Notes under the pieces: model-generated
What the model saw: the letters and a program-made list of their open reading frames with translations, nothing else
Database searches by the model: none
What the model was told of the DNA's origin: nothing
In this document: piece after piece, positions 2,781 to 59,634 of the stretch
Position numbering within the stretch: position 1 is the stretch's first letter
How the letters are laid out: each line of letters begins with the position of its first letter
Position numbers and translations under genes: made by a program
Assembly: GCF_008727875.1 (NCBI RefSeq)
Contig: NZ_VTWS01000003.1
Coordinates: 434,001-498,000, forward strand
Origin: Larkinella humicola
Lineage (GTDB): Bacteria > Bacteroidota > Bacteroidia > Cytophagales > Spirosomataceae
Length of the DNA: 64,000 bases
Direction: 5' to 3'

Positions 2781-2967
2781 AGACCTGCCAGGTTTTGAAA
2801 ACCTGGCAGGTCTGGCTAAAGTGATACCCTTCATTGAAATCGCAAAACCTGAAAGGTATGAATAAGTTAACGCAAACTGTGAGATTACTGACCCCAGAGG
2901 GGTCCGATGTTAATAGCAAATCGGTATTCTGAGAGTTCCAGGCGTGCCGCTGGCACTTAAGCAAGTG
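2781..2967. repeat. REP-like cluster of short hairpins
   Basis: This 318-nt gap between the divergently placed PiT gene and the rlmN 3' end has no credible gene. It holds four inverted repeats. The first has 16-bp perfect arms and a 1-nt loop: 2781-2796 pairs with 2798-2813 (core CCTGCCAGGTTTT). The second is GACCCC-aga-GGGGTC at 2890-2904. The third is GTGCC-gct-GGCAC at 2944-2956. The fourth is CACTT-aagc-AAGTG at 2954-2967. The second, followed by a TGTTAATAGCAA tract, resembles REP elements widespread between genes in Bacteroidota. These can act as terminators or mRNA stabilisers. Confidence 0.7.
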
Positions 2968-2991
2968 CATCATCTCATAGTTGGCGTTAAC

Positions 2992-4047
2992 TTACTGTTT
3001 ACCGGCCAATTGTCCGCAGGCGGCATCGATGTCTTTGCCCCGGCTCCGCCGAATGTTGACGATGACGCCCCGGTCTTCCAGAAAACCGGCGAACCGGTCG
3101 AGTGTCTGGGGGTCGGTATTTTTATAATCGGCTTCCGAAATCGGATTGTACTCGATGATGTTGACTTTGGCCGGTACTTTCTTCGTGAATTGCCACAGCT
3201 CCTTGGCGTCCTCCAGCGTATCGTTGACGTTGTTGAAAACGATGTATTCAAACGTAACCCGCGTACCGGTTTTCTGGTAGAAATGCGTCAGCGCTTCGGC
3301 CAGTGCGGGCAGCGAATTGCTCTCGTTGATGGGCATAATCTGGTTGCGCTTTTCGTCGTTGGCAGCATGAAGCGAAAGCGCCAGGTTGAATTTCACCTGA
3401 TCGTCCCCCAGTTTTTTAATCATTTTGGCAATTCCGGCGGTCGAAACTGTAATCCGTTTGGCCGCCATGCCCAGGCCGTTGGGCGACGTAATCCGCTCGA
3501 CCGACTCCAGCATGTTGGCATAATTGAGCAGTGGTTCGCCCATGCCCATGTAGACAATGTTGGTCAGACCGGTTCCGTAGGCTTCTTTCGCCTGCTGGTC
3601 GATGGCCACCACCTGATCCACCATTTCGCTGGCTTCCAGGTTGCGTTTGCGGTCCATGTAGCCCGTTGCGCAGAATTTGCAGGTCAGCGAACACCCCACC
3701 TGCGACGAAATGCAGGCCGTCATCCGGTCGTCTTCGCTTTTCCGCAACGACGGAATTAGCACGCCCTCTACCAGATTGCCGTCGAAAAGCCGGAACGACG
3801 ATTTGATGGTACCGTCGGCACTTTGCTGCTGTTTCGAGACCGCCAGCGCCCGCACTTCAAAATGTTCGGCCAGCAATTGCCGCGTTTTCAGCGACAGGTT
3901 GGTCATTTCCTCAAACGTGCGTACCGAATGTTTCCAGAGCCATTCCTGAATTTGTTTCGCCCGAAAACCCTGCTCGCCGTGGCTGGTCAGCCAGGTTTTC
4001 AGTTGGTCGTCACTGAGCTTGCGTATATCCTGCTTCGTCGTAATCAT
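2992..4047 (-). CDS. rlmN: 23S rRNA (adenine(2503)-C(2))-methyltransferase RlmN
   Basis: A 351-residue radical-SAM methyltransferase that adds a methyl group to C2 of A2503 in 23S rRNA (and to A37 of some tRNAs in other bacteria). The 4Fe-4S-binding Cys triad is CSLTCKFC (C119, C123, C126). The second functional Cys needed by this dual-cysteine mechanism is present near the C terminus (GKDIDAACGQ, C344). Length and motif order match RlmN rather than Cfr; a RlmN-like N-terminal accessory domain precedes the barrel. It overlaps the cvpA-like gene upstream by 4 nt, so the two are probably translated from one message. Confidence 0.95.
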   Translation of the reverse strand: MITTKQDIRKLSDDQLKTWLTSHGEQGFRAKQIQEWLWKHSVRTFEEMTNLSLKTRQLLAEHFEVRALAVSKQQQSADGTIKSSFRLFDGNLVEGVLIPSLRKSEDDRMTACISSQVGCSLTCKFCATGYMDRKRNLEASEMVDQVVAIDQQAKEAYGTGLTNIVYMGMGEPLLNYANMLESVERITSPNGLGMAAKRITVSTAGIAKMIKKLGDDQVKFNLALSLHAANDEKRNQIMPINESNSLPALAEALTHFYQKTGTRVTFEYIVFNNVNDTLEDAKELWQFTKKVPAKVNIIEYNPISEADYKNTDPQTLDRFAGFLEDRGVIVNIRRSRGKDIDAACGQLAGKQ

Positions 4048-4637
4048 CCTTTTTTATGCGGTCTTTCCACGCCGGAGTCTTCCGAATCGGTGTTGTCGTC
4101 GGACCAGTTGCGTGAGAATTCTTCCTTTTGTTTTCGAATCCAGTTCGTTCCTACGGGAATCCAGCCGGAGGTTACATCCATCACGATGGGTGCGATGGGT
4201 TTTACGACCGGATACAGATACGTTTCCTGCGTGTGTTTCACAGGCATACGGATTCCCATCCACGTTAACAACCAGAGCATTACACTAATTCCGAAAACCC
4301 AGGTAAAAATTCCGACGGCCGCTCCGGCTAAACTGTCGAACGTTCCCAGAAGCGTGTATTTAAGCGACTGGCGCAGGGAAAAACCGATGCGGTTGATCAG
4401 AAAAACAGTCGGAAAAAAAATAATGGAAAAGCCCAGCCACGGCAATAACCGCCGGGCCACTTCCATGCTGATGTACGGTGCCAGCAGGTCAATGCCGAAA
4501 CCCAGAAACTTGAATCCGACGATCATCGCCACGATAAACGCCACAATGGCCACAATTTCCACCAGCAAACCCTTTCGGTAGCCATTGAACGCGCCATAGA
4601 GCAACGTAATCAGAATGATGATGTCGAGAATTTTCAA
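4044..4637 (-). CDS. CvpA family membrane protein
   Basis: A 197-residue inner-membrane protein with an N-terminal hydrophobic hairpin (MKILDIIILITLLYGAFNGY then KGLLVEIVAIVAFIVAM) and two further membrane segments near residues 65-90 and 105-125, the usual CvpA (colicin V production) topology. The C-terminal 60 residues are polar and probably cytoplasmic. CvpA proteins are linked to envelope homeostasis; the exact role is unknown. The last 4 nt overlap the start of rlmN. The start ATG at 4637 is the first in frame and begins the first membrane helix directly. Confidence 0.85.
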   Translation of the reverse strand: MKILDIIILITLLYGAFNGYRKGLLVEIVAIVAFIVAMIVGFKFLGFGIDLLAPYISMEVARRLLPWLGFSIIFFPTVFLINRIGFSLRQSLKYTLLGTFDSLAGAAVGIFTWVFGISVMLWLLTWMGIRMPVKHTQETYLYPVVKPIAPIVMDVTSGWIPVGTNWIRKQKEEFSRNWSDDNTDSEDSGVERPHKKG

Positions 4638-4640
4638 TTG

Positions 4641-4789
4641 TTAAATGGTTGGATGGCTTTGATGGTTAAAGGGCTGAAAAATGGTTTTGATGGTTGAATG
4701 GGTGGAAAATGGTTAAATGGCTCGTCGTAGTTTTAACCATCCAACCATTTTTAACCATGATAACCATCAAAACCATTCACAACCATTTA
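4641..4789. repeat. Imperfect long inverted repeat, word family AATGGTTTTGATGGTT
   Basis: Fills the whole gap between the YqeY-type gene and the cvpA-like gene. The left arm (about 4641-4700) and right arm (about 4731-4789) are imperfect reverse complements, roughly three quarters identical by hand alignment with small gaps. Each arm is a degenerate tandem of ATGGTT-containing words about 8 nt long. The right arm contains the stop codon of the YqeY gene. The same words recur at 54.1 kb. Confidence 0.75.
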
Positions 4790-5242
4790 AGCAGTCAGCA
4801 AATTCTTTACCAACGCTGAAATGGCTTTCCCTTCGGCCTGACCCGCCAGTTCTTTGGTAGCCACGCCCATTACTTTTCCCAAATCCGACGGCCCGGTGGC
4901 ACCAACGCGGGCGATGATGTCCTGCACGCGGGTTTTCAGTTCGGTTTCCGAGAGCTGTTGGGGTAAATAATGTTCGATGATGGCGATTTCTGCCAGTTCG
5001 GCCTGCAAAAGATCGTCGCGGCCCTGCGTCCGGTAAATATCGGCCGAATCCCTCCGCTGTTTCACGGCTTTGGTCAGCAGTTTCAGTTCATCTTCGGGCT
5101 TGATGTCGCCCCCGGCCGAACCGTCTTTGGTTTCTTCCAGTAAAATCAGCGACTTAATCGCCCGCAAAGCCCGCAACCGATCCTGCTCCCGGGCTTTCAT
5201 AGCCTCCTTGATGTCAGCATCGATTTGTTGTTTCAGCGCCAT
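4787..5242 (-). CDS. GatB/YqeY domain-containing protein
   Basis: A 151-residue protein covering a single GatB/YqeY domain, the size usual for stand-alone YqeY. It opens with the family pattern of a helix containing IKEAMKAREQDRLRALRAIK and ends with the helical tail domain (GPSDLGKVMGVATKELAGQA), which in GatB contacts tRNA. Stand-alone members are not catalytic amidotransferases and their role is unproven; tRNA-related binding is a family-level guess. It is transcribed towards cvpA-rlmN, and a hairpin-forming gap separates them. A -7-like box TAACTTTG lies on the minus strand at 5310-5317 but I find no matching -33 element. Confidence 0.9.
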   Translation of the reverse strand: MALKQQIDADIKEAMKAREQDRLRALRAIKSLILLEETKDGSAGGDIKPEDELKLLTKAVKQRRDSADIYRTQGRDDLLQAELAEIAIIEHYLPQQLSETELKTRVQDIIARVGATGPSDLGKVMGVATKELAGQAEGKAISALVKNLLTA

Positions 5243-5262
5243 ATGTCAGTTAATAATTAAAA

Positions 5263-5365
5263 GTTATGAGTTAAGAGTTACTTTAACTCCGGAACCAATG
5301 ACTGTTTGGCAAAGTTACGAAAACAGGATGGGCTTGTTTGCACCTCATAACTCTTAACTGATAAC
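5263..5365. repeat. Inverted repeat in the yqeY/pdxJ divergent spacer
   Basis: GTTATGAGTTAAGAGTTA at 5263-5280 is matched 17 of 18 in reverse complement by 5348-5365, with a loop of about 67 nt that contains the probable promoter of the YqeY gene. The word GAGTTAAGA is the same as that used at 50.4, 51.7 and (one arm only) 41.5 kb. Unlike most other inverted repeats here it flanks a divergent promoter region rather than gene ends. Confidence 0.7.
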
Positions 5366-5378
5366 TCTTCCCTAAAAA

Positions 5379-6092
5379 ATGACTCGTTTGAGTGTTAATA
5401 TCAATAAAATTGCCACGCTACGGAATTCGCGGGGTGGCAATAATCCGAATGTGGTCAATGTGGCCCTCGATTGCGAACGGTTCGGAGCGCAGGGCATAAC
5501 GGTGCATCCACGCCCCGACGAACGGCACATCCGCTACAACGATGTGTTGCAGTTGAAAGAGGTAGTCACGACCGAATTTAATATTGAAGGCAATCCCGAC
5601 GAGCGGTTTATTGAACTGGTGACGCGCGTGCGGCCCGAGCAGGTGACGCTGGTTCCCGATGCGGTCGACGCCATTACGTCCAACGCGGGCTGGAATACGG
5701 TTTTGCACCGGGATTACCTGACGGATCTGGTCAAGCGGTTTAAAGACCTGGGAATCCGGGTTTCGATCTTCGTGGATGCCGATGAGCAGATGGTGCAGGG
5801 GGCTAAAGAAGTCGGCACCGACCGGATCGAATTGTATACCGAACCCTATGCGGCTCACTACGCCGAAAACCGGGAAGCCGCCATCGCTCCCTTTGTTCAG
5901 GCGGCCAAACTTGCCAACGAATTGGGATTGGGTCTCAACGCAGGTCACGACTTAAGTCTGGAAAACCTGCGGTATTTTCACCAGAACATCCCCGGTTTGC
6001 TCGAAGTATCCATTGGTCATGCGCTCATCAGCGACGCACTGTATCTGGGCCTAGAAAATACCATTCAATTGTATTTAAAAGAATTGGAATAA
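5379..6092 (+). CDS. pdxJ: Pyridoxine 5'-phosphate synthase
   Basis: A 237-residue TIM-barrel enzyme that condenses 1-deoxy-D-xylulose 5-phosphate with 3-amino-2-oxopropyl phosphate to give pyridoxine 5'-phosphate, the last ring-forming step of the DXP-dependent vitamin B6 route, in the cytosol. Recognisable blocks: [16 protein letters not shown] at the N terminus, the substrate-binding [10 protein letters not shown] near residues 45-54, ELYTEPYA near the middle, and [15 protein letters not shown] followed by [13 protein letters not shown] at the C terminus. Length is typical. A long hairpin (6094-6166) begins directly after the stop codon. No other B6 gene is adjacent. Confidence 0.96.
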
Positions 6093-6093
6093 A

Positions 6094-6166
6094 GAGGATA
6101 GACAAGAGAATAAAGACAAACTAAGCTGGCTACCAGCACTTTGTCTTCACTCTCTTGTCTATCCTC
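6094..6166. repeat. Long inverted repeat between pdxJ and the RidA gene
   Basis: The 27-nt arm 6094-6120 (begins GAGGATAGACAAGAGA) is matched 25 of 27 by the reverse complement of 6140-6166. The loop holds a second perfect hairpin, GCTGG-cta-CCAGC at 6125-6137. The whole lies between two genes on the same strand and ends 13 nt before the RidA start codon, so it would form in the leader of the RidA message if the two are cotranscribed. The word AGACAAGAGA recurs in the hairpin at 52.4 kb. Confidence 0.8.
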
Positions 6167-6179
6167 TATCCTCTACACC

Positions 6180-6563
6180 ATGATTTCATCCGTCGAAACC
6201 CCCAACGCTCCGCTTCCTGCCGGGCATTATGCCCAGGCCACGGTCTGGAACGACCTGATTTTCGTATCCGGTCAATTGCCCATTCATCCCGTCACGAAGG
6301 AGAAATTCACCGGCCCGATCGACCTACAAACCCGGCAGGTGCTGGAAAATGTCAAAGCCATTCTGGAAGCCGCCGGGAGCGATCTGGCCCACGTCCTGAA
6401 AACGACGGTTTACATCGCCGACATTTCGCTCTGGGACCAGGTCAACGCGGTTTACGCGGATTTTTTCGGCGATCACAAACCCGCCCGCGCCGTGGTGCCA
6501 ACGAAAGAACTGCACTACGGTTTTCTGATTGAGATTGAAGCGGTGGCTGCGCGGATACCCTGA
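6180..6563 (+). CDS. RidA family protein (reactive enamine/imine deaminase)
   Basis: A 127-residue YjgF/YER057c/UK114-family protein. RidA hydrolyses reactive 2-aminoacrylate and related enamines that PLP enzymes release, protecting the cell. The start is the ATG at 6180, which gives the classic opening ISSVETPNAPLPAGHYAQA; frame upstream of it is only repeat sequence. The conserved block is PARAVVPTKELHYGFLIEIE: the Arg and C-terminal Glu expected in deaminase-competent members are present, while the usual LPKGA between them is LHYGF. The last seven codons lie inside a perfect inverted repeat (6541-6605). Sitting behind pdxJ fits a role next to PLP chemistry, but that is inference. Confidence 0.93.
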   Translation: MISSVETPNAPLPAGHYAQATVWNDLIFVSGQLPIHPVTKEKFTGPIDLQTRQVLENVKAILEAAGSDLAHVLKTTVYIADISLWDQVNAVYADFFGDHKPARAVVPTKELHYGFLIEIEAVAARIP

Positions 6564-6605
6564 CAGCGGTCGAAGACCCTGTCAGCGGTATCCGCGCAGC
6601 CACCG
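6541..6605. repeat. Nested hairpin that copies the last codons of the RidA gene in reverse
   Basis: CGGTGGCTGCGCGGATACC (6541-6559), which encodes the end of RidA, is repeated as a perfect 19-bp reverse complement at 6587-6605. Pairing continues inward with CTGACAG (6560-6566) against CTGTCAG (6579-6585) across a single bulged C, and the loop contains GGTC-gaa-GACC (6568-6578). About 30 bp of near-continuous stem results. The core CCTGTCAG with a nested GGTC/GACC hairpin also occurs at 43.5 kb. Confidence 0.85.
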
Positions 6606-6717
6606 CTGACAGGATCTCCGATCGAGCAGTAGTAAAGCTATAAAATCCACCGCTAACAGGGTTTCCGACCCAGCAGTAGTAAAGCTGTAAAATCCACCGC
6701 TGACAGGGTCTCCGACC
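6603..6717. repeat. 47-bp direct tandem repeat, about 2.4 copies
   Basis: Unit 1 is 6603-6649, unit 2 is 6650-6696, and a 21-nt partial third is 6697-6717. Units begin CCGCTGACAGG and include GCAGTAGTAAAGCT. Units 1 and 2 differ at a handful of positions. The third copy is followed by GCTGTCAGGGT, so an inverted CTGACAG/CTGTCAG core caps the array. It fills the gap between the convergent RidA and oxidoreductase genes. Confidence 0.85.
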
Positions 6718-6729
6718 GCTGTCAGGGTG

Positions 6730-8172
6730 TTACAACGAATAATTACCCCGGTATTGCCGTTTCACAAACTGGTTGGCGTAATCGAAGTTGGTAATTTTCA
6801 TGTTTACGCCGTCCCACAACAGCTTCTTACGGCCCGGGAAAGTGAAGCCTCCACCGGTTTTCGGTTCCCGGTACAAATAACTACGTGTCGCCAGGTTCCC
6901 CATCAGAACGGTTTCGGTCAGCGGGCCGGATTCATCGAACGACGAGCTCGTATAGGCCCCGTAGCCTTGCTTGCAGGCTTTGACCCATTGCTGCTGGTGG
7001 CCGTCGGTTTTGCCCTCGACCAGCGGTTTTTCGGCATCCGGCATTTTTTTGTCGCCAAATTTTTCTTCCGGAAACAAACGCGGATTGTTCCCAAACAGCT
7101 CGGCAACCAGAATGCCTTTGCTACCGATGAACATCATGCCGCCGTCGATGTTCGTAAACACTTTCTCGTACGGAATGCCGTCCGGTACTTGCGGACGAAT
7201 CCCGCCATCGTACCACGAAAACTTGATTTCTTTTACCTTCCTGTCGTCCGACGGAAAGGTCAGGTGAATCGCCGACGAGGGGGGACAAACATCGTCGTAA
7301 AACGCTTCTTTGAAGAAATCAGAATAGACCGAACCCACACTACACTCCACCGAAGTCGGGTATTTCAGTTTCAACGCCCGGAACGGTACATCCATGAAGT
7401 GGCAACCCATGTCGCCGAGTGCGCCCGTACCGAAGTCCCAATAGCCCCGCCAGCGGGTCGGCATGTAGGCTTCGTGGTAGTCGCGCGCAGGGGCCGTGCC
7501 GAGCCACAAATCCCAGTCGACCTCCGACGGAACCGGTTGCGACTCGCCTTTGTCTTTTGGCGACCGAACACCCTGCGGCCACACCGGGCGGTTGGTCCAG
7601 CAGTTGACGGTATGAACGTGCCCGATGGCCCCTTTCTGAATCCAGGTTTCTATCTTGCGTGTATCATCACCGCTGCTGCCCTGATTGCCCATTTGCGTCA
7701 CGACCTTGTATTTCCGGGCCGCTTCGGTCAGCATCCGGGCTTCGTAAATATCGTGCGTCAGCGGTTTTTCGCAATACACGTGTTTGCCCAACTGCATGGC
7801 GGCCATCGCAATCGGCGCGTGCATGTGGTCGGGTGTCGAGATAATCACGGCTTCGAAATTCTTCGCTTCCTTGTCGAATAATTGGCGGTAATCTTTGAAA
7901 TACGGGGCCTTGGGAAACTGGGCGCGGAACTTCTTTGCCTGCCGGTCGTCGACATCACACAGCGCGACCATGTTGTCCGAGCCGTTGTTATAGGCCATCC
8001 GAATGTTTACATCCGCTTTACCACCACAACCCACGGCCGCGATGTTGAGCTTATCGCTGGGAGCCGTAAAGCCGGAACCGCCCAGCACGTGACGGGGTAC
8101 AATCGTAAAACCGGCGGCAGCCAGGGCACTGCCCTGAATGAATTTCCGGCGGGAAAGGGAGGTAAATTTCAT
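6730..8172 (-). CDS. Gfo/Idh/MocA family oxidoreductase, Tat-exported
   Basis: A 480-residue NAD(P)-dependent oxidoreductase of the sugar/inositol dehydrogenase superfamily. The N terminus has a twin-arginine signal (LSRRKFIQGSALAAAGFTIV) so the folded cofactor-loaded enzyme probably works in the periplasm. A Rossmann domain follows (KLNIAAVGCGGKADVN), then the catalytic-site CEKPLTHDIYEARML with the family E-K-P motif. The longer C-terminal half, with TRWRGYWDFGTGALGDMGCH, is the alpha/beta substrate domain. Exported members in Bacteroidota act on glycans or sugar derivatives, but no linked glycoside hydrolase or SusCD pair is here to suggest a substrate. It converges on the RidA gene. Confidence 0.92.
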   Translation of the reverse strand: MKFTSLSRRKFIQGSALAAAGFTIVPRHVLGGSGFTAPSDKLNIAAVGCGGKADVNIRMAYNNGSDNMVALCDVDDRQAKKFRAQFPKAPYFKDYRQLFDKEAKNFEAVIISTPDHMHAPIAMAAMQLGKHVYCEKPLTHDIYEARMLTEAARKYKVVTQMGNQGSSGDDTRKIETWIQKGAIGHVHTVNCWTNRPVWPQGVRSPKDKGESQPVPSEVDWDLWLGTAPARDYHEAYMPTRWRGYWDFGTGALGDMGCHFMDVPFRALKLKYPTSVECSVGSVYSDFFKEAFYDDVCPPSSAIHLTFPSDDRKVKEIKFSWYDGGIRPQVPDGIPYEKVFTNIDGGMMFIGSKGILVAELFGNNPRLFPEEKFGDKKMPDAEKPLVEGKTDGHQQQWVKACKQGYGAYTSSSFDESGPLTETVLMGNLATRSYLYREPKTGGGFTFPGRKKLLWDGVNMKITNFDYANQFVKRQYRGNYSL

Positions 8173-8217
8173 ACGGGTTTAGGTTTAGGGAGTGAAACAG
8201 GGAGAACGACCGAGCCG

Positions 8218-8945: not shown

Positions 8946-9488
8946 ATGCAAGCTGAACAAACCCTTCTCCGACAACTGCGGAACGCCGACCCGACTGCCT
9001 TCAGGCGGGTCTACGATCGGTACGTTCAACGGATTTATTATTTCACAGTAAGCTTTCTAAAATCACCGGAAACCGCTCAACAGATTGTGCGTGACGTCTT
9101 TACTACGCTTTGGGAACGACGCAGTACGCTTGATGAAGACATCCCCCTGAACGGTTATTTGTTTACCATGACCTACGGACTCGTGCTTTCGACTTTTCGC
9201 GAACGGCACAGCCAATGCCAGCCGCAGGAAATTCTCCAGCGATTGACCACGCAGTCCGGCACCGATACCGAGGAGCAAGTGCTGTATCAGGAACTGGAAT
9301 TACTGTATCAACAGGCCGTTGGGCAACTTCCCCCGCGTCGGCGTGAAATCTACTTGCTCAGCCGACACGAAGGATATACGTCGCAGCAAATCGCGGATCG
9401 CATGAACCTCTCCACCCGAACAATCGAAGATCATCTGGCCCAGGCTTACGACACGCTGGGCAGTTATTTTCAACGACATACCTACTAA
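8946..9488 (+). CDS. ECF-type RNA polymerase sigma factor
   Basis: A 180-residue group-IV sigma factor. Region 2 (about residues 8-80) includes FRRVYDRYVQRIYYF and a degenerate AQQIVRDVFTTLWERR, which corresponds to the usual DLVQEVFLKLWE core-binding segment. Region 4 (about 120-172) carries the helix-turn-helix YTSQQIADRMNLSTRTIEDH that reads the -35 element. Regions 1.1 and 3 are absent, as expected for ECF. The FecR-type membrane partner follows after a hairpin-filled 85-nt gap. In Bacteroidota such pairs usually control a SusC/SusD transport locus, but none is adjacent here. Directing transcription of a distant target is inferred. Confidence 0.93.
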   Translation: MQAEQTLLRQLRNADPTAFRRVYDRYVQRIYYFTVSFLKSPETAQQIVRDVFTTLWERRSTLDEDIPLNGYLFTMTYGLVLSTFRERHSQCQPQEILQRLTTQSGTDTEEQVLYQELELLYQQAVGQLPPRRREIYLLSRHEGYTSQQIADRMNLSTRTIEDHLAQAYDTLGSYFQRHTY

Positions 9489-9562
9489 ATGAGTGAATGA
9501 GCGAATGAGTGAATAGATCAAAGATCCTGCTTTTTATTCACTCATTCGCTCATTCACTCATT
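9488..9562. repeat. Perfect 28-bp inverted repeat between the sigma factor and FecR genes
   Basis: Arm 9488-9515 (AATGAGTGAATGAGCGAATG and on) is the exact reverse complement of 9535-9562. The arm is a degenerate tandem of the 8-mer GAGTGAAT. The loop holds GATC-aaa-GATC. The left arm begins on the last base of the sigma-factor stop codon and the right arm ends 11 nt before the FecR start. It could limit read-through so that less anti-sigma than sigma message is made; that is a guess. Confidence 0.85.
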
Positions 9563-12255: not shown

Positions 12256-13491
12256 TTAATCTTCAATGTAGTTTAAATCCTTGCCATATGTTTCATCTAA
12301 TGTCACCAAAGACCAGAAACTAATCATAAAACAAAGCAATCCAACCAGGGCGGCTGCACCAATCACACCAACCGAAAGTTTGAGCGATTGAAAGAGTGGA
12401 ATCGTTACTAATGTGGTAGCCCGGACGTTGTTTGCAATGGAGGTTGTGGCGGTGGCGCGCAGGTTGGTACCAAAATGTTCGGCCGAAACGGTTAAAAACA
12501 GGGCGATATAACCAATCGAGAATCCCAGCCCTACGCAAACGGCATAAAACAGCGGGACGGACGAAATACCGCCAAAGAGATAAATGCCTACAAACACGAG
12601 ATTCATCGTCATCAACGCCCCAATGGCCCGTCGGCGGGACCGAAACCACTGGCTCAATGCCCCGCTGATCAAATCGCCTACCGCCATACCGATATACGTG
12701 AACATGACGGTTCGACCCGGCGTGATGGGCTCGGCAATGCCCAGGGCTTTCCCGAACTCGTTGCTGAAGGTGGCCAGGATGCCGATTACAAAGTAGGTCG
12801 GAACGGCCAGCCCCATACACCGCAGGTAGGTCAGAAAGCGTTTTTGGTTGGAGAACAGCGACCAGAAATTACCGCGCCGGACGGTTTGCTCCTTGATTTT
12901 GAGAAACATTCCCGACTCGAAAACCGACACGCGCAACAGCAACAACAGCAGGCCCAGGCCACCCCCGATGAAATACGTTGTCCGCCAGTCGAACAGCACG
13001 ACGGTGAAATATGCCACCACGGCCCCAAAAAGACCCACACCCGCGATCAGTGAGGTGCCGTAGCCCCGGAGTTCTTTCGGTAGGATTTCGGAAACGAGCG
13101 TAATGCCCGCGCCCAATTCGCCGGCCAGCCCCAGCCCGGCCACAAACCGCAAAACCGCATACGTATCCGCGTCCTGCACAAAACCGCAGGCAATGTTGGC
13201 GAGTGAATAGGTAATGATGGACCCGAAGAGCACCGAAAGCCGCCCCCGCTTATCGCCCAGAATACCCCAGAAAACACCGCCCAGCAACAACCCGGCCTGC
13301 TGCCAGTTCAAAACCGTTCCCCCGATGACCGACACCTGTTTTTCGTCGAGCCCCAAATCTTTCAGACTCGGCACGCGAACGATGTTGAACAGCAACAGAT
13401 CGTAGACATCCACGAAATAGCCCAGAGCGGCCACAATAACCGGCAATGTAAACAGCGGGCGGTAGGTTACGGAAGGCGAAGAAGAAGCCAT
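12256..13491 (-). CDS. MFS transporter (first of two tandem paralogues)
   Basis: A 411-residue, 12-helix major facilitator permease. It shows the MFS loop 2-3 motif GDKRGRLSVLFGS and the family-wide block GLAGELGAGITLVSEILPKE in the helix 4-5 region. It opens with RPLFTLPVIVAALGYFVDVY and shares long identical stretches with the next gene (for example DLLLF.IVRVPSLKDLGL and PTYFVIGILATFSNEFG), so the two arose by tandem duplication. The substrate is unknown; the fold resembles the metabolite:H+ symporter group. It is separated from its paralogue by a long hairpin. Confidence 0.9.
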   Translation of the reverse strand: MASSSPSVTYRPLFTLPVIVAALGYFVDVYDLLLFNIVRVPSLKDLGLDEKQVSVIGGTVLNWQQAGLLLGGVFWGILGDKRGRLSVLFGSIITYSLANIACGFVQDADTYAVLRFVAGLGLAGELGAGITLVSEILPKELRGYGTSLIAGVGLFGAVVAYFTVVLFDWRTTYFIGGGLGLLLLLLRVSVFESGMFLKIKEQTVRRGNFWSLFSNQKRFLTYLRCMGLAVPTYFVIGILATFSNEFGKALGIAEPITPGRTVMFTYIGMAVGDLISGALSQWFRSRRRAIGALMTMNLVFVGIYLFGGISSVPLFYAVCVGLGFSIGYIALFLTVSAEHFGTNLRATATTSIANNVRATTLVTIPLFQSLKLSVGVIGAAALVGLLCFMISFWSLVTLDETYGKDLNYIED

Positions 13492-13527
13492 GCCAGAGGA
13501 AGAAGGAGAATGGTTTAATTTTAAATG

Positions 13528-13625
13528 AATGATGAATGTAAAATGAGCAACGCTAAATGTAAAAGTAGGCTGGGTGCTTCTGAACCCCTTTTACATTTAG
13601 CGTTACTCATTTTACATTCATCATT
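13528..13625. repeat. 38-nt inverted repeat between the two MFS genes
   Basis: Arm 13528-13565 matches the reverse complement of 13588-13625 at 37 of 38 positions. Arms carry words such as GATGAATGTAAAATGAG and AACGCTAAATGT. The loop is 22 nt and itself can pair GGGT with ACCC. Both flanking genes are on the minus strand; the element lies 16 nt past the end of the upstream gene and 36 nt before the start of the downstream one. Confidence 0.85.
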
Positions 13626-13641
13626 TTTAACAACGTGTCCC

Positions 13642-34426: not shown

Positions 34427-34432
34427 AGAGTT

Positions 34433-34528
34433 GGTATACGGTTTTCAGTTTACGGTATTCGGTGGCTGACGCATTCTTGTTGCAGCTTGCGTCAGCCACC
34501 GAATACCGTAAACTGAAAACCGTATACC
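34433..34528. terminator. 41-bp perfect inverted repeat, probable bidirectional terminator
   Basis: Arm 34433-34473 is the exact reverse complement of 34488-34528, with a 14-nt loop. It contains the words GGTATACGG, TTTTCAGTTTACGG and TATTCGGTGGCTGACGCA. It occupies almost all of the gap between the convergent sorbosone-dehydrogenase-like gene (stop at 34426) and the monooxygenase gene (stop at 34534). This is the longest perfect stem in the window. Confidence 0.85.
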
Positions 34529-34533
34529 GAAAC

Positions 34534-36842: not shown

Positions 36843-36877
36843 TATGAACTCGTAAGATCTGTCTTCAGTAGTATCAG

Positions 36878-36990
36878 CCCACGGTTTTAACCGTGGGTTT
36901 AAAGAGTATTTTTACATCCTGAAACCGTTTCAACGGTTTCCTCATTGGCTTTCCACAACAGCTCACGGTTAAAACCGTGAGCTGTTTTTT
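36878..36990 (+). terminator. Triple hairpin of the ACCGT family ending in an intrinsic terminator
   Basis: Three hairpins follow the hydrolase. CCCACGGTT-tt-AACCGTGGG at 36878-36897; GAAACCGTT-tc-AACGGTTTC at 36921-36940; and ACAGCTCACGGTT-aa-AACCGTGAGCTGT at 36958-36985, the last followed at once by a T run, i.e. an intrinsic terminator on the plus strand. The first and third share the ACGGTT/AACCGT core and look like copies of one REP element. Confidence 0.8.
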
Positions 36991-43500: not shown

Positions 43501-43572
43501 TTTGATTTGTTTCCAGGCTGACCCTGTCAGGGTCTTTGACCACTAACAGGGTCAGCCTGGAAACAAATCAAA
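43501..43572. repeat. 27-bp perfect inverted repeat with nested core
   Basis: Arm 43501-43527 (TTTGATTTGTTTCCAGGCTG and on) is the exact reverse complement of 43546-43572. The loop contains GGTC-ttt-GACC (43531-43541). The inner sequence CCCTGT..GGTC..GACC..ACAGGG is the same core as the repeat behind the RidA gene at 6.56-6.6 kb. The right arm includes the end of the glycosyltransferase gene (43568-43572). Confidence 0.85.
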
Positions 43573-46027: not shown

Positions 46028-47011
46028 ATGCGCGAAGCGGCTTTTATCAAACAGAATACGGAAAAGTGGAAGGAGATCGAGAGCGAACCGGTAACCGCCA
46101 ACGACCGCTCCAACCCCGACGTGCTGACCGACCACTTCATCGAACTGACCGATGACCTGTCGTATGCCCGGACGTTCTACCCCACGTCGCCCGTCACCCG
46201 GTATCTCAACGGTCTGGCGGCCACGATGCACCGGCGGCTGATGGGCAACAAACGGGAGGACCGCAGCCGTTTTGTCCAGTTCTGGGCGGTAGAATTGCCG
46301 TTGCTGTTCCGGAAATCACACCGGCTTTTGCTGGTGTCGTTCGTCATTTTTCTGGTAGCGGCTGCACTGGGCTGGGTGTCGGCGGCCAACGACGAGTTGT
46401 TTGTCCGGCTGATTCTGGGCGACGATTACGTCAATATGACGCTCGAAAACATCCGGAAAGGCGATCCGCTGGCGGTTTACAAAGGCAGTGGACAGGCCGA
46501 TATGTTCATGGGCATCACCGTCAACAACATCCGGGTTTCGTTCATCGCGTTCATTCTGGGTTTGTTTGCGTCCTTCGGAACGATTGCTGTCATGTTTCAG
46601 AACGGCGTGATGCTGGGCGCTTTTCAGTATTTTTTCTACGAACGCGGTTTGCTGCTTCCGTCTGTCCTAACGATCTGGATTCACGGAACGCTGGAAATTT
46701 CGGCCATCGTCATTGCGGGCAGCGCGGGTCTGACGCTCGGCAACAGTTTGTTGTTTCCGGGCACCTGGTCACGGCTGGAGTCGTTCAAACACGGAGCCAA
46801 ACAGGGGCTCAAAATTGTGATCGGGCTCGTACCGGTTTTCATCACGGCGGGTTTTCTGGAGAGTTTCGTCACGCGGTTACCCCTGCATCCGGTGGTCAGT
46901 TCGGCTATTATTCTGGCATCGGCTGCGTTCATTATCTGGTATTTTATCCTGTATCCGATTCAACTGGAAAAGAGAATTACTGAGGATGGGAACGCGGATC
47001 GAACGGATTGA
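46028..47011 (+). CDS. Stage II sporulation protein M (SpoIIM)-like membrane protein
   Basis: 327 residues with a helical N-terminal cytosolic region and five or six hydrophobic segments from about residue 95. The SpoIIM pattern is visible in FIAFILGLFASFGTIAVMFQ, MLGAFQYFFYERGLLLPSVL and IWIHGTLEISAIVIAGSAGL. The organism is a Gram-negative type with no other spore genes, so this is not a sporulation function; in Bacteroidota these proteins go with RDD, DUF4129, MoxR and DUF58. The last nine codons lie in a hairpin arm (46984-47082). Confidence 0.9.
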   Translation: MREAAFIKQNTEKWKEIESEPVTANDRSNPDVLTDHFIELTDDLSYARTFYPTSPVTRYLNGLAATMHRRLMGNKREDRSRFVQFWAVELPLLFRKSHRLLLVSFVIFLVAAALGWVSAANDELFVRLILGDDYVNMTLENIRKGDPLAVYKGSGQADMFMGITVNNIRVSFIAFILGLFASFGTIAVMFQNGVMLGAFQYFFYERGLLLPSVLTIWIHGTLEISAIVIAGSAGLTLGNSLLFPGTWSRLESFKHGAKQGLKIVIGLVPVFITAGFLESFVTRLPLHPVVSSAIILASAAFIIWYFILYPIQLEKRITEDGNADRTD

Positions 47012-47082
47012 AACAGATTTTATCCGTGGAAATCTGTTTCAATCCGTTCAATCGCAACGGCGACCCGGCCGCGTTCCCATCC
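46984..47082. repeat. Two-step inverted repeat at the SpoIIM gene end
   Basis: The inner stem is perfect over 20 bp (47001-47020 with 47030-47049; GAACGGATTGAAACAGATTT). The outer stem is perfect over 14 bp (46984-46997, GGATGGGAACGCGG, with 47069-47082). A 19-nt bulge lies on the right side. The left arms encode the end of SpoIIM and contain its stop codon. Confidence 0.85.
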
Positions 47083-49783: not shown

Positions 49784-50365
49784 ATGTCTAAAGGTCTTAT
49801 TATTGGCATCGTCCTGGTTCTGATTTTTGGTTTTTTCGGATGCAGTACATATAACGGTATCGTCGGAAAAGACGCGAATGTGGGTGAAAAATGGGCTCAG
49901 GTCCAAACACAATACCAACGCCGGGCCGACCTGGTTCCGAACCTGGTGAACACCGTAAAAGGAGCCGCCAATTTTGAAAAAAGTACGTTAACAGCGGTCA
50001 TGGAAGCCCGTTCGAAAGCCACCAGCGTTCAACTGACCGCCGACCAACTGACGCCCGAGAATGTTCAGAAATTTCAGGCGGCTCAGGATCAGTTAGGCGG
50101 TACGCTGTCGCGTCTGCTGGCCGTGTCCGAAAACTATCCGCAGTTGAGAGCCACGCAGAATTTCTCCGAACTCCAGTCGCAACTGGAAGGCACCGAAAAC
50201 CGCATTAGTGTAGCGCGGAATGACTTCAACGCGGCCGTCAAAGACTACAACGTTTCGGTCCGCACATTCCCGGCCAATATTTTCGCCGGTATTTTCGGTT
50301 TCTCAGTGAAAGGTTTCTTCGAAGCGTCACAAGCCGCCCAGAATGCCCCAGCCGTTCAATTTTAA
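49784..50365 (+). CDS. LemA family protein
   Basis: 193 residues. An N-terminal helix/lipoprotein-like signal (LIIGIVLVLIFGFFGC; Cys at residue 20) anchors it in the membrane. The LemA core is VGEKWAQVQTQYQRRADLVP, NLVNTVKGAANFEKSTLTAV and DYNVSVRTFPANIFAGIFGF. Mostly long helices. LemA proteins occur beside TPM-domain genes, as here; their role is unknown beyond a link to envelope. It is followed by a hairpin in the GAGTTAAGA family. Confidence 0.95.
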   Translation: MSKGLIIGIVLVLIFGFFGCSTYNGIVGKDANVGEKWAQVQTQYQRRADLVPNLVNTVKGAANFEKSTLTAVMEARSKATSVQLTADQLTPENVQKFQAAQDQLGGTLSRLLAVSENYPQLRATQNFSELQSQLEGTENRISVARNDFNAAVKDYNVSVRTFPANIFAGIFGFSVKGFFEASQAAQNAPAVQF

Positions 50366-50457
50366 GTTAAGAATTAAAAGTTAAGAGTTAAAAATAGACT
50401 GCCTCATTAAACATTTGGCAGATCAACATTTTTAACTCTTAACTCTTAACTTTTAAT
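50366..50457. repeat. 30-nt inverted repeat after lemA-type gene
   Basis: Arm 50366-50395 (GTTAAGAATTAAAAGTTAAG and on) matches the reverse complement of 50428-50457 at 29 of 30 positions. The left arm begins on the first base after the LemA stop codon. The word GAGTTAA is shared with the elements at 5.3, 41.5 and 51.7 kb. Confidence 0.85.
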
Positions 50458-50470
50458 TCATAACTCCTTT

Positions 50471-51715: not shown

Positions 51716-51727
51716 GTTAAGAATTAA

Positions 51728-51781
51728 GAGTGAAGAGTGAAGAGTTAAACTGTCTATCAGATAACTCTTCACTCTTCACTC
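51728..51781. repeat. 20-bp perfect inverted repeat of the GAAGAGT word
   Basis: Arm 51728-51747 (GAGTGAAGAGTGAAGAGTTA) is the exact reverse complement of 51762-51781. The arm is a tandem of the 7-mer GAAGAGT. It sits between the convergent TPM gene and the lipoprotein gene, and the right arm contains the stop and last codons of the lipoprotein. Confidence 0.85.
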
Positions 51782-52326
51782 TTCACTAACTTTCCATCAA
51801 TCAAAAACCGCTTCTGATCCAGCCACGCCAGTTGCTGAAATCCTTCCAGGTGGTAGCGTTTGACCGCGCCTTTCTCGCTTTCCAGCCAGACGTTCCGTTC
51901 CGATTCATAGAGGGAATTCTTGGTTCGTAAGGTCGCTTTGATCAGCCGGGGCTGGCGGGTGGCCGAATCCAGCTCGATGCGCAGAACCTGAACGGGGAGC
52001 TTTTCTCCCGGTTTCAGGACATATTCATATGTGAGCGAATCCGGGCGGTTTTTCAGATAACTGGACTGATAGGCCTGCTTGTTGATGTCGGCTTGCAGAA
52101 ACAAATCGAGTTCACGGCTCCAGTCAATGTCTTTTGTCGTTTGCTGCTCTTTCTCATCGCCAAAACCGGCCTGTTTCAAAACCGTCGGTTGCTGGCTTTT
52201 TAACTGATTGATCTGCTGTTCGATATACGATTTCAGATCGTAATACGTCCCGGCGGGGGCTTCTTTGGTAGGATTGCTGCAAGCGGCTAACGCCAGAATA
52301 AAAACAAGTCCGTAACTAAATTTCAT
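51769..52326 (-). CDS. Hypothetical lipoprotein
   Basis: 185 residues from the ATG at 52326 (a second ATG is at 52329, an earlier one at 52356). The signal is KFSYGLVFILALAAC with a lipobox LAAC, so it is probably anchored in a membrane. The mature part has YYDLKSYIEQQINQLKSQQP and a beta-rich second half (LPVQVLRIELDSATRQPRL, VWLESEKGAVKRYHLEGFQ). I do not recognise a family. The last codons lie in the hairpin arm 51762-51781. Confidence 0.8.
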   Translation of the reverse strand: MKFSYGLVFILALAACSNPTKEAPAGTYYDLKSYIEQQINQLKSQQPTVLKQAGFGDEKEQQTTKDIDWSRELDLFLQADINKQAYQSSYLKNRPDSLTYEYVLKPGEKLPVQVLRIELDSATRQPRLIKATLRTKNSLYESERNVWLESEKGAVKRYHLEGFQQLAWLDQKRFLIDGKLVKSEE

Positions 52327-52420
52327 CATCCTAAAAAATACCCCCTGACTTTCCAATCAGAGGGAGTGCAATGCTGTTTAGTTGGCGAACACCAACCAAA
52401 GCTGAAAAGTTTGTCGTTCA

Positions 52421-52507
52421 AGACAAGAGAAGTGAGACAAGAGAGTAAAGACCGCATTTGAATGATCTGTTATAAGTCTTTACTCTCTTGTCTCACTTCT
52501 CTTGTCT
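52421..52507. repeat. 32-bp perfect inverted repeat after gpmI
   Basis: Arm 52421-52452 (AGACAAGAGAAGTGAGACAA and on) is the exact reverse complement of 52476-52507. The right arm overlaps 2 nt of the gpmI stop codon. The words AGACAAGAGA and GTAAAGAC are shared with the element after pdxJ at 6.1 kb. It lies between two minus-strand genes and would form a terminator-like stem at the end of gpmI. Confidence 0.88.
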
Positions 52508-54088: not shown

Positions 54089-54192
54089 AAAAATGGTTTT
54101 GATGGTTGAAATGGCTGAATGGCTAAAAAATGGTTCATTTGAGCAGTCTTGCCAATTTTCAACCATTCTTCAGCCATTCAAATCATTCAAAT
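54089..54192. repeat. Imperfect inverted repeat of the ATGGTT word family
   Basis: Left arm about 54089-54135 and right arm 54152-54192 are imperfect reverse complements; the best stretch (around TTGAAATGGCTGAA) pairs 16 of 21. Words TGGTTTTGATGGTTGAA are shared with the element at 4.64-4.79 kb. The right arm includes the stop codon of the 54183-57518 gene. Confidence 0.7.
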
Positions 54193-57100: not shown

Positions 57101-57518
57101 TGCTGGAACGTACGCTTTTCCGAACCTGCCCCGCCAGAATCTGGAACGATAGATGGTGGTAGCTTTCGGCCAGCGCGCTGAACAAAGCCGCATTGGGTCC
57201 CTGCTTATCCAGTTCGTGCAAAAAGGTAGCAATAGCCTGCTCGAACCGGCGGGCCAGCAAATCCTCAAAACCGGCGTACGGCACTTTCCCGGTTGTTGGC
57301 GTTTCGGGCGTTTCCATCAGGAAAAACCGGAAGCCCGCATACAGGAACAGAATGGCTCTTACTTTATCGTATAAACTCGGTGTCGATTTCCGAAATTCAT
57401 CGAGCTCCCGCAACAGGCCCAGCAACTCTTTCCCCGACAACCGGCGACTTATTTCGTAAAAAGAACGGTTGCGTTTGGCGGGATCTGTCGATGTAATCGT
57501 CTCTATAAAAACGTTCAT
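54183..57518 (-). CDS. GHMP kinase-like/UDPGP-type nucleotidyltransferase fusion
   Basis: 1111 residues. After an N-terminal helical region (1-180), residues about 185-545 resemble a GHMP sugar kinase: SGWSDIFFLGMDYPEGARVV (187-206), IPKGSRFAVSTNLLGSI (313-329), a GGSGGGWQDSGGVWPGIKAI block (365-384) similar to fucokinase, and LGGMSGGGMGMF (527-538). Residues about 735-1111 have the UDPGP nucleotidyltransferase pattern LSLAAGVGSRWTKGAGVIKA (739-758). In fucokinase/GDP-fucose pyrophosphorylase (FKP) the order is transferase then kinase; here it is reversed. It probably makes an activated sugar from a free sugar, but which one is unknown. The smaller transferase gene ends 4 nt upstream. Confidence 0.75.
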   Translation of the reverse strand: MNVFIETITSTDPAKRNRSFYEISRRLSGKELLGLLRELDEFRKSTPSLYDKVRAILFLYAGFRFFLMETPETPTTGKVPYAGFEDLLARRFEQAIATFLHELDKQGPNAALFSALAESYHHLSFQILAGQVRKSVRSSKGNQWMFRVGHREEHPIRIHPTLLKRPENSLFYPILHEQTSVRMDLTHSGWSDIFFLGMDYPEGARVVNISIDLGVFGRDADIRPPLNCYVRVIPDPVLRLTSIDLNTTKDIADLADLFNFGNDYLSLVKAGVIASGLIPPSFENTNQSLPDILSRMVAPGMGIELVTKVNDIPKGSRFAVSTNLLGSIISLLMRATGQTKKLEGGLEESERRLVASRAILGEWIGGSGGGWQDSGGVWPGIKAIQGTFAQEGDPESGISRGTLLPRHRVLQGDEIHPEMGEKIMKSLVLMHGGMASNVGPILEMVTEKYLLRGDNEWTARQQTNQVFDNILAAIKEGDIRKLGANTAKNWEGPIKTIIPWASTYFTEQIISKAKTAFGDDYYGFLMLGGMSGGGMGMFVNPVGYEDYKMKVLDILRKTKAELSASLPFAMEPVVYNWSINYKGTWATLQAGTEALMPEQYYGIHVSELVRKDPASISYIRRAEIDLFTTYCEKNNLAYPLLRTIISNLFKVSDPTSQSNRSVENEKAERIKKENGFDYIQHEEIREDLQKGRIGLSRNRLAAETTIEDVQPGDIVQFDELTASVKTGEAAIRAGKVAVLSLAAGVGSRWTKGAGVIKALNPFVEIEGRHRSFLEIHLAKTRKVAETYGGLIPHLVATSYLTHEPIRKILAETGNFGYSGTTYLSPGRSIGQRFVPMERDLRFMWEEMPQETLDENKQKVRDAVRQTMIGWAKSKGEGSDYVDNIAAQRFSPLGHWYEVSNLLRNGVLAQLLAEHPQVETIVLHNIDTLGMNVDPAVVGHHLESGNMLTFEVVPRRIEDRGGGLARVNGNLRLLEGLAQPREEDELNLSYYNSMTTWIQIDPLLALFGLTRQDLQDGDEAKLAKAVRSVAHRIPTYVTTKDVKYRWGHGQEDIYPVAQIEKLWSDMSALTDVQCGYVAVPRMRGQQMKDPAQLDAWVTDGSKDYIAGLGTFE

Positions 57519-57521
57519 ATA

Positions 57522-58472
57522 TCAGACAGTTCTGCTGTTTGCTTCAGCCAGTAATTCCACCATTGTCGACAGGATTTCGCTGTGGGCATCGCCCGCTAAT
57601 CCCAACGCAATCTGCGCGCGTAACAGCCCGTGTTTCCGGCTTAAATCGTAGCGATTCCCTTTTACTTCCAGCGCCAGATAGTTTTCGGTTTCGGCCAGTT
57701 CCTGAAGGGCAGGCGTCAACAGAATGTTGGTGCTGTTCTGGTCGATGTATTTCTGTAAAATGGAGAAAATAGCGGGGGTAAAGACGTGCATTCCGAAGAA
57801 GCACAGGTAATAGCCAGCCCGTAAACCCGGAGTCTGGAGTTCGAGTTCGGCCACACTCAGGGGTGGTTTTTCAATGATTTTCTCAATCTGATAGACTCCT
57901 GAACGGTTAGCAGCCTGCTTGCCCGTAAGCGTTCCGTAGCGGCCAATCTGGTGTTCGATGGTCGGATTAACGGCCGAAACCGAGCAGTTTTCCTGCGAAG
58001 CCAGTTCCAGCAATTGGGCCGCGCAGCTTTTCAATTTGAGATTGGAAACATAAAGATAATCTCCCAACAACAGCAGAAAGGGCTCATTGTTCACAAAATC
58101 CTTAGCACAATAGACGGCATGGCCATAGCCCAGCGGTTCCTGTTGCTCGGCAAACTGAACGCGATCCAGCAAATGATCGATTTTCTCGGCTTCTTTCTTC
58201 GCCCAGTCGACGCCCTTGAATGAATTGAAAAGATTATCCCGCAGGGAAGCAAAAGCTTTAAGATAGCGGTCGCCGTCGCCGGGCGCACAAACCACGCACA
58301 ATTCTTCAATTCCGCTGGCAAACGCTTCTTCAGCAATAATCTGGATCACCGGTTTGTGCAGGCCGTCGGTATCGATCACCGGAAGCATGGCTTTCTGAAT
58401 GGTATCCGCAACCGGATAGAGCCGTTCTCCACGGGCAGCCGCCGTAATCACCGCTTTTTTAATTCTCATCAT
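57522..58472 (-). CDS. Sugar-1-phosphate nucleotidyltransferase (GalU-like)
   Basis: A 316-residue nucleotidyltransferase. The N-terminal signature is ITAAARGERLYPVADTIQKA with K and MLPV following: the usual GxGTR is AxGER, so a Gly and the Thr are replaced while Arg and Pro are kept. Other pieces: LLLLGDYLYVSN (the acidic metal-site region), EQQEPLGYGHAVYCAKDF and a C-terminal LEVKGNRYDLSRKHGLLRAQ like GalU. It may make UDP- or similar sugar for its partner. The larger kinase/transferase gene follows immediately on the same strand. Confidence 0.87.
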   Translation of the reverse strand: MMRIKKAVITAAARGERLYPVADTIQKAMLPVIDTDGLHKPVIQIIAEEAFASGIEELCVVCAPGDGDRYLKAFASLRDNLFNSFKGVDWAKKEAEKIDHLLDRVQFAEQQEPLGYGHAVYCAKDFVNNEPFLLLLGDYLYVSNLKLKSCAAQLLELASQENCSVSAVNPTIEHQIGRYGTLTGKQAANRSGVYQIEKIIEKPPLSVAELELQTPGLRAGYYLCFFGMHVFTPAIFSILQKYIDQNSTNILLTPALQELAETENYLALEVKGNRYDLSRKHGLLRAQIALGLAGDAHSEILSTMVELLAEANSRTV

Positions 58473-58653
58473 TTACGAAGCTAATTTTAAGATGGTATAT
58501 CGTTGAGTAGTTATGGATGGCCATTCACAAACGGGTTCAATCTAAAGAAAATTAGCAGACTAAAAGCCATACGGTTTGTCAGACCTATTTTATTGAAATT
58601 TTTTCTTTATTTCATAAAACTATCCGTACCTCCGGGGGAGATTATCAAGTGCA

Positions 58654-59181
58654 TTATTTCTTTTTTGCTCCCGTTACAGATGGTTGCAGTGCGTGTTGCT
58701 CCACCAGGTAATTCAGCAAATTTTCGCAGCAACGGGACACAATCTGATAGACTTGTTCAAAAACTACAGCGTCTTCGTAATAAGGGTCGGGGACACTCAG
58801 CCCATTCGGCCCGGAATCCGGCTGGGGATCAAATTCGCGCAGTAGAACCGTGTTTTCTTCGCTGTAAAGTCCGGTACTCCGGTGGCTGAAATACTGAATG
58901 GCGTCATAATTCGCTTCGTCCATGGCCACGAGGTAATCGAACTGCGACAAATCCTCACCCGACAGCTTGCGGGCGCGGTGGGTCAGTTTAATGCCGTGTT
59001 CGAGCGCATTTTCACGGGTCCGGCGGTCGGGCAGGTCGCCAATGTGGTAGGAAGATGTGCCGGCTGAGTCGCATTGAATCGACGCTTCCAGGCCCCGTTC
59101 TTTGATCAACTGCTGAAATACGCCTTCCGCCACCGGCGACCGGCAAATGTTTCCCAGACAGACAAAGAGAACGTTAAGCAT
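58654..59181 (-). CDS. Low-molecular-weight protein tyrosine phosphatase
   Basis: 175 residues from the ATG at 59181, which opens directly on VLFVCLGNICRSPVAEGVFQ with the phosphate loop C-X5-R (CLGNICR). The catalytic acid is in VPDPYYEDAVVFEQVY (DPYY motif). The family dephosphorylates tyrosine in proteins, often kinases of polysaccharide export. It is downstream of the DivIC-type and enolase genes on the same strand. The 58473-58653 gap upstream of it on the nucleotidyltransferase side contains nothing I can support. Confidence 0.95.
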   Translation of the reverse strand: MLNVLFVCLGNICRSPVAEGVFQQLIKERGLEASIQCDSAGTSSYHIGDLPDRRTRENALEHGIKLTHRARKLSGEDLSQFDYLVAMDEANYDAIQYFSHRSTGLYSEENTVLLREFDPQPDSGPNGLSVPDPYYEDAVVFEQVYQIVSRCCENLLNYLVEQHALQPSVTGAKKK

Positions 59182-59242
59182 GATGATGGGTAATGGACAA
59201 TGGAGCATTGTCAATCGTCAATGGCCGATGGTCACTAAAGGT

Positions 59243-59554
59243 CTACTTTTCGATGGGTTCATTTTTCTCATTGACCAGCACATAAACATCCTCATTGGGC
59301 TTTTTCATGAGGTAGTTTTCGCGGGCGTATTTCTCCTGCAAACGGGGATTGCCCAGAATGGACTGGCGCTGAATTTCTACTTCCTCGATTTTTTCGTCGT
59401 AATAGACCAGATCCGTCTCCAGATCGCCCAGTTTCAGGCTGTTGCGAACTTGAGAAATGATGTCGTTGGCATCAAAAAACAGCATCCAGATCAACAATCC
59501 CACACCCGTTGCGAAATAGAAGTTTTTGACGACTCGGAGGATTTTGGTCAGCAT
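59243..59554 (-). CDS. FtsB/DivIC-type septum formation initiator protein
   Basis: 103 residues from the ATG at 59554. It has one membrane helix near the N terminus (YFATGVGLLIWMLFF) and then a coiled coil (LKLGDLETDLVYYDEKIEEV, EIQRQSILGN) with the family motif YARENYLMKKPNEDVYVLVN. This is the bitopic divisome protein DivIC/FtsB that forms a complex with FtsL and FtsQ. It sits between eno and the phosphatase gene; pairing with eno is common in Bacteroidota. Confidence 0.93.
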   Translation of the reverse strand: MLTKILRVVKNFYFATGVGLLIWMLFFDANDIISQVRNSLKLGDLETDLVYYDEKIEEVEIQRQSILGNPRLQEKYARENYLMKKPNEDVYVLVNEKNEPIEK

Positions 59555-59572
59555 GGGATTTTGAAATAAAGG

Positions 59573-59634
59573 CCCCAACCCCCTAAAGGGGCTTTCAGCA
59601 TCTGGCTTTTTTAGCGCCCTTTAGTGAGTTGGGG
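59573..59634. repeat. Inverted repeat between DivIC gene start and eno end
   Basis: CCCCAAC (59573-59579) pairs with GTTGGGG (59628-59634), and CTAAAGGG (59583-59590) with CCCTTTAG (59617-59624), with a 3/3 internal loop. The CCCCAACCCCCTAAAGGGG word is common between genes in Bacteroidota. Both flanking genes are on the minus strand; it lies just after the enolase stop codon and before the DivIC start. Confidence 0.8.

Follow-up and report, generated by a model that had tools for sequence, protein, structure and literature searches.

Template switching homogenises the arms of inverted repeats and inverts their spacers (PMC8604942), and it can both create and maintain RNA hairpins, inversion of the loop being its strongest mark (PMC8794818). 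Homogenised arms and spacers inverted between orthologues are also what we found in long hairpins at the gene ends of Larkinella humicola, described here from a 64,000-nt stretch (the window; RefSeq GCF_008727875.1, contig NZ_VTWS01000003.1, positions 434,001 to 498,000, or G000:C14:434001-498000 in our coordinates) and from the rest of the genome (7.86 Mb, 20 contigs). The examples in those papers are spacer inversions of 2–5 bp in yeast coding genes and hairpins of rRNA or microRNA whose loops mostly have 4 nt. The L. humicola hairpins differ in arm length (up to 45 nt), in loop length (13–41 nt), in standing at bacterial gene ends, and in that about a third of their recognisable loops are inverted between two sister species.

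Repetitive extragenic palindromic (REP) elements, which are GTAG- or CGTC-tagged and associated with RAYT transposases (PMC3733652), are likewise palindromes downstream of genes, concentrated between convergent or unidirectional open reading frames, and Y1_Tnp is present in L. humicola as well. REPs share a family sequence and end tags, whereas most arms here are 7-mer arrays that vary by site, a comparison made with no systematic tag search. Intrinsic (Rho-independent) terminators and the gene-end inverted repeats of Escherichia coli (PMC6060812) resemble the present elements in forming a long stable RNA hairpin directly after stop codons; the L. humicola stems and loops are longer, and the T-run is mostly missing. 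The TAACTGA heptamer repeats (PMC4679880) are intergenic arrays of a 7-base unit, sporadic in Bacteroidetes and Cyanobacteria; they are direct repeats, in the genome studied mostly upstream of start codons, whereas here a mirrored second arm follows the stop codon. A search of open-licence literature returned no report of flipped loops in hairpins at the ends of bacterial genes. The mechanism is already known from yeast genes and rRNA; its scale here, the turnover of words at fixed sites and the frequency of flipping look unusual.

Number and position of the hairpins

We counted 85 inverted repeats at a score of at least 14 in 464 kb (the window and 20 other stretches), against a shuffled mean of 0.2, and 170 in a 1,038-kb sample of the genome, against 0.65 when each gap and each gene was dinucleotide-shuffled separately (20 repeats). 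At a score of at least 20 the sample holds 103 repeats and the 20 shuffles none. Shuffled sequence thus does not yield similar counts, an outcome that the first-pass annotation of the window had named as one that would refute it. Within their scored arms, 113 of the 170 repeats have no mismatch, and the density extrapolates to about 1,290 sites (roughly 1,300) in the genome.

The same annotation had placed the repeats at gene ends, and this holds: 162 of the 170 lie between genes, as called by a simple purpose-made caller rather than taken from annotation, and convergent gaps are most often occupied (50 of 106), followed by tandem gaps (98 of 452) and divergent gaps (10 of 136). Of 48 hairpins in tandem gaps, 42 are closer to the upstream stop (median 9 nt) than to the next start (median 47.5 nt). 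The predicted RNA folding energy of 138 elements has a median of −49.6 kcal/mol.

Loop inversion and mirrored arm changes

A 278-kb block was compared with five sister genomes (G301, G297, G300, G303 and G298), using gaps of at least 20 nt whose neighbours share at least 60% identity and whose orthologous gaps do not exceed 2 kb. The nearest sisters, G301 and G297, are about equally distant (0.213 and 0.206 at 4-fold sites; the others 0.50–0.56), and their hairpin-free gaps differ from those of L. humicola by 6.0% and 6.6%. Orientation was scored for loops of at least 10 nt with recognisable similarity, and the central 20 nt of hairpin-free gaps served as control.

L. humicola and G301 both carry a hairpin in 34 gaps. 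Ten of the 16 recognisable loops have the same orientation and six are inverted, compared with 0 of 95 in the controls (Fisher p 3.5e-6); 11 further gaps show no loop similarity and seven have loops shorter than 10 nt. Against G297 there are seven loops in the same orientation and two inverted, with five not similar and two short. Over all 15 genome pairs we found 36 same, 13 inverted (from 10 gaps, one with low arm similarity), two ambiguous, 149 dissimilar and 57 short, and in the hairpin-free controls 810 same, none inverted, nine ambiguous and 316 without similarity. Unrelated loops pass the similarity cut in 0.4% of cases. A second block was compared over 40 kb of G297 and short loci; there three loops have the same orientation and none is inverted at the cut-off, two more sites show changed words or are unclear, and the rest have short or dissimilar loops.

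The clearest case is gap C14:417115, where identical 45-nt arms enclose a 13-nt loop that is reversed, TTTCAATGCGACG versus CGTCGCGTTGAAA. At gap C14:626238 a 17-nt loop is exactly reversed, and two adjoining arm base pairs differ in mirror. Another likely inversion, in gap 13447–13641 of the window, falls below the cut. We would guess from the agreement of the other genomes with one another that the change lies in L. humicola at gaps 202 and 205, and it may lie in G301 at gap 43. Under a two-state flip model, 6 of 16 corresponds to about 0.69 flips per site, or about three per 4-fold substitution at a divergence of 0.21, an estimate with wide error from small numbers.

Arm changes are mirrored more often than chance predicts. 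Among 463 base pairs aligned between L. humicola and G301 at 18 sites, 432 are unchanged, 20 are changed on one side, nine are changed in mirror and two are changed on both sides and unpaired; three additional positions have a one-sided gap. About 0.3 mirrored changes are expected if the sides change independently. With G300, 222 pairs include 15 mirrored changes (about 1.0 expected) and 17 one-sided ones.

Persistent sites and changing words

Between L. humicola and G301, 17 tandem gaps have a hairpin in both genomes, seven in L. humicola only, six in G301 only and 84 in neither (odds ratio 34). The sites persist where the words do not. In gaps with a hairpin in both genomes, arm words are the same, intermediate or different in 15, 6 and 6 cases with G301, 8, 2 and 2 with G297, 8, 2 and 11 with G300, 5, 3 and 4 with G303, and 3, 0 and 8 with G298. 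After removal of pairs with related words (non-divergent gaps), the odds ratios are 6.9 for G301 (p 0.005), 9.0 for G297 (p 0.06), 5.8 for G300 (p 0.001), 5.8 for G303 (p 0.03) and 26.7 for G298 (p 1e-5). In gap 34427–34533 of the window, six of seven sisters examined have another hairpin; G300 uses the same vocabulary, and G296 has short GC-rich stems. Related genomes thus show conservation of pairing beyond that of the letters, which leaves the earlier observation standing.

Hairpin density at a score of at least 18 varies within the group, with 16 per 100 kb in the window, 21 in G301, 14 in G300, 11 in G298 and 11 in G303, and 5, 1 and 1 in G299, G296 and G302. Across 80 named Bacteroidota loci (1.59 Mb) we found 33 hairpins, and 58 loci have none; the richest are from Fibrella (7) and Spirosoma (3), with words similar to those of L. 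humicola.

The first-pass annotation had described the individual elements as using unrelated words. Arms of unrelated gaps are indeed mostly dissimilar (median similarity 0.21, with 1.7% reaching at least 0.6), and the statement needs amending for 7-mer and 8-mer vocabularies that recur, among them AGTTAAG/AGTGAAG, AATGATG/AATGTAA, GTTTACG/GTTTTCA, AGACAAG, and 8-mers such as AATGAGTG. Non-periodic words that recur include the CCCCTAAA and CTCCGGAG palindromes. Autocorrelation in arms of at least 20 nt peaks at 7 (z 19.7) and 14 (z 15.0), indicating 7-base units arranged head to tail; the best period among 113 such arms is 7 in 36, 8 in four, and 9 or 10 in three. Among 54 periodic arms, 51 have more G than C on the 5′ side (p 2.9e-12), as have 41 of 68 others, with three ties. 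A reverse partner stands at most 150 nt downstream of 14 among 17 forward AGTTAAG-type arrays and upstream of none. One pattern of this type has 86 matches on one strand of the genome and 89 on the other, compared with 0 for a reversed control; 34 genomes out of 296 in the phylum contain it.

Two side observations concern these words. Of 136 occurrences of the motif GGCTGACGCA (at most one mismatch), 38 fall within or close to hairpins, which cover 2.6% of the 1.04-Mb sample. Stop codons occur in all three frames of 23 of 54 periodic 5′ arms (shuffled mean 11.3, standard deviation 2.5); a 7-base unit shifts a stop through every frame.

Proposed mechanism

Inverted loops together with mirrored arm changes are the published signature of template switching, and we think it likely that these hairpins, which are probably terminators or mRNA 3′ boundaries, evolve by template switching during replication. 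On meeting a hairpin, the polymerase would let the nascent strand jump to the opposite arm, so that one arm is copied into the other and the two are homogenised; a switch spanning the loop would leave the loop reversed. Slippage by 7 nt within arms, and inserted palindromic elements, would bring in new words, and if a hairpin is useful at a gene end its position would be kept while its letters are free to vary. The position at gene ends and the persistence of sites without sequence identity suggest such a use at transcript ends, and from position we infer that the hairpins may halt transcription. The first-pass annotation had held that some process must make or keep the arms matched, naming inverted copying, gene conversion or strong structural selection; the inverted loops and the excess of mirrored changes bear out the general claim, inverted copying fits best of the three, and structural use is hinted at by position.

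Several results weigh against this explanation. G301 and G297 compared with each other give six loops in the same orientation and none inverted. Few loops were scored for orientation, the 13 inverted pairs share gaps, and all comparisons are between assemblies. One-sided changes outnumber mirrored ones between L. humicola and G301, so homogenisation is not instant. No period was found in 70 of the 113 arms of at least 20 nt, and hairpins occupy some divergent gaps too. As for a terminator role, 17 of 122 flanks contain 5 T or more within 8 nt (mean 2.7 T, background 1.9), and a long hairpin and an ordinary terminator do not clearly exclude each other (convergent gaps, odds ratio 0.48, p 0.21; tandem gaps, odds ratio 1.92, p 0.08). 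Mutual exclusion of the two was accordingly dropped as not significant.

A stronger form of the proposal is doubtful, namely that gene-end hairpins in this lineage are rewritten with unusual activity, perhaps with the help of an enzyme: arms would be re-copied, loops would flip at about three times the neutral rate of base change per site, words would be swapped within a stock of G-rich 7-mers that spans the genome, and position would be under selection, which would make of the gene ends a quickly changing 'mirror script'.

If template switching is the process, the roughly 1,300 sites per genome would form a natural assay for it in bacteria, in which strain comparisons would give rates according to arm length, loop length, strand and the surrounding genes. 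A terminator-like feature would be seen to hold its position as its sequence is replaced, and paired changes in a stem would by themselves be no proof of selection for pairing.

Alternative explanations

Small mobile palindromes at gene ends, REP-like or resembling miniature inverted-repeat transposable elements and perhaps moved by Y1/RAYT proteins, would explain a flipped loop as a landing in the opposite orientation. The genome has candidates for such elements: 47 hairpin pairs of the sample are alike in both arm and loop, the best 25 being mainly of the CCCCTAAA and CTCCGGAG types with one 8-mer type. Gap C14:403687 holds a CCCCTAAA-type element that G301 and G300 both lack; judged by eye, it has GAAGT on either flank and so resembles an insertion that duplicated 5 bp of its target. 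In G301 a palindromic element of this kind sits inside an older hairpin in the 34427 gap, and the L. humicola genome has seven Y1_Tnp (PF01797) matches. The earlier view that the repeats are not one mobile element may therefore not hold for part of the set, a subset of dispersed palindromes with common loops. As the general cause mobility is unlikely: it leaves the 7-mer hairpins unexplained, most of whose arms are site-specific, and in gap 6093 the core of the loop is reversed while the bases beside the left arm keep their orientation, which argues for a local switch rather than re-insertion. Beside these elements we note that a 27-bp palindrome (L057:18543-18665) and a Y1_Tnp match (G000:C17:417778-418119) are about 0.4 kb apart.

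Compensatory evolution, in which selection for RNA pairing at terminators acts on arms that mutate separately and second mutations restore the pairs, is somewhat less probable still. It would account for the gene-end position and the large folding energies, and the 20 one-sided changes could be its intermediates. Mirrored changes, however, run at about 30 times the independent expectation, and the loops, which have no pairing partner, flip whole; pairing selection by itself would not be expected to turn loops round. Arms of 30–50 perfect pairs are also beyond the known need of a terminator.

A structure- or site-specific recombinase that flips loops, as at invertible promoters, would fit loops turned between unmoved flanks and is very improbable, because the arms of the inverted sites share no recognition sequence and mirrored arm changes are not an effect of an invertase, no search having been aimed at such an enzyme. 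Equally remote is an assembly artefact through ambiguous loop orientation between identical arms: the congeneric assemblies other than G296 are multi-contig and long identical arms are ambiguous for short k-mers, yet inverted sites include arms of 12–24 nt (gaps 43, 137, 205, 225 and 188), shorter than the usual final assembly k-mers, and more than one genome departs from the rest.

A lost nuclease, one that would otherwise suppress template switching, was considered and rejected, as the absence of xseA does not track the hairpins. None of the nine genomes of the genus gave a match to xseA (exonuclease VII large subunit, TIGR00237), nor did G304, and four of 15 relatives have one. The Fibrella (L152) and Spirosoma (L149) genomes behind the richest of the 80 named loci have xseA, and in the 27 of 40 named genomes without it most loci contain few hairpins or none. 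An E. coli-type exonuclease I model matched in 0 of 15 and, among controls, in E. coli alone; sbcD is present in L. humicola and above the cut-off in 14 of 15.

Hairpins of the window

The main list of the first-pass annotation names 12 sites, and each is an inverted repeat that lies within about 20 nt of the position given; the ungapped arms measure 15–41 nt (Table 1). Among the three that it called looser, 4680–4777 is confirmed, 54089 is weak (10-bp ungapped stem), and at 59573 no ungapped stem of at least 9 bp was found.

Table 1. Hairpins of the 64-kb window (window coordinates).
Position	Repeat	Words	Location	Remark
2781–2813	perfect palindrome, 15/15 bp, loop 3			
4680–4777	looser repeat, 41 nt (78%), 16-bp perfect core	ATGGTT-type	downstream of − strand gene at 4787	
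5262–5366	arms 19 nt (1 mismatch), 67 nt enclosed	AGTTAAG-type	between − strand gene and pdxJ (+)	divergent gap, the rarer kind
6093–6167	17/17 bp perfect (28 nt at 93%)	AGACAAG-type	immediately 3′ of pdxJ stop	G301 loop inverted
6539–6607	perfect palindrome, 21/21 bp	CCGCTGACAGGG-type	within repeat region of this type extending to 6728	
9488–9562	28/28 bp perfect	8-mer, AATGAGTG-type	3′ of sigma-70-like gene	G301 loop inverted
13528–13625	arms 38 nt (1 mismatch)	AATGATG/AATGTAA-type		G301 loop probably inverted, below strict cut
34433–34528	41/41 bp perfect	GTTTACG-type, contains GGCTGACGCA	convergent gap	
36875–36984	arms 21 nt (1 mismatch), loop 68			strong site, absent from first-pass list
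43501–43572	27/27 bp perfect	inner part CCCTGTCAG-type	downstream of − strand gene	
46997–47053	arms 24 nt (1 mismatch)	GATTGAACGGATT-type	overlaps end of SpoIIM-domain gene	
50365–50465	arms 27 nt (1 mismatch)	AGTTAAG 7-mers	spans gap from LemA-gene stop to 5 nt before next start	
51726–51783	22/22 bp perfect	AGTGAAG 7-mers	convergent gap	
52421–52507	32/32 bp perfect	AGACAAG 7-mers	adjoins 3′ end of phosphoglycerate mutase gene	absent in G297

Searches for Rfam and tRNA matches in the window returned none. In the divergent gap 5243–5387 the enclosed loop is nearly identical, with unchanged orientation, in G301 and G300; it is probably the promoter region before pdxJ. The phosphoglycerate mutase has relatives, among the matches listed, in Spirosoma oryzae (72%) and Fibrella forsythiae (70%). 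At 52330–52505 the whole hairpin beside this gene, present in L. humicola and G301, is gone from G297, which retains an 85-nt gap, apparently by a clean deletion.

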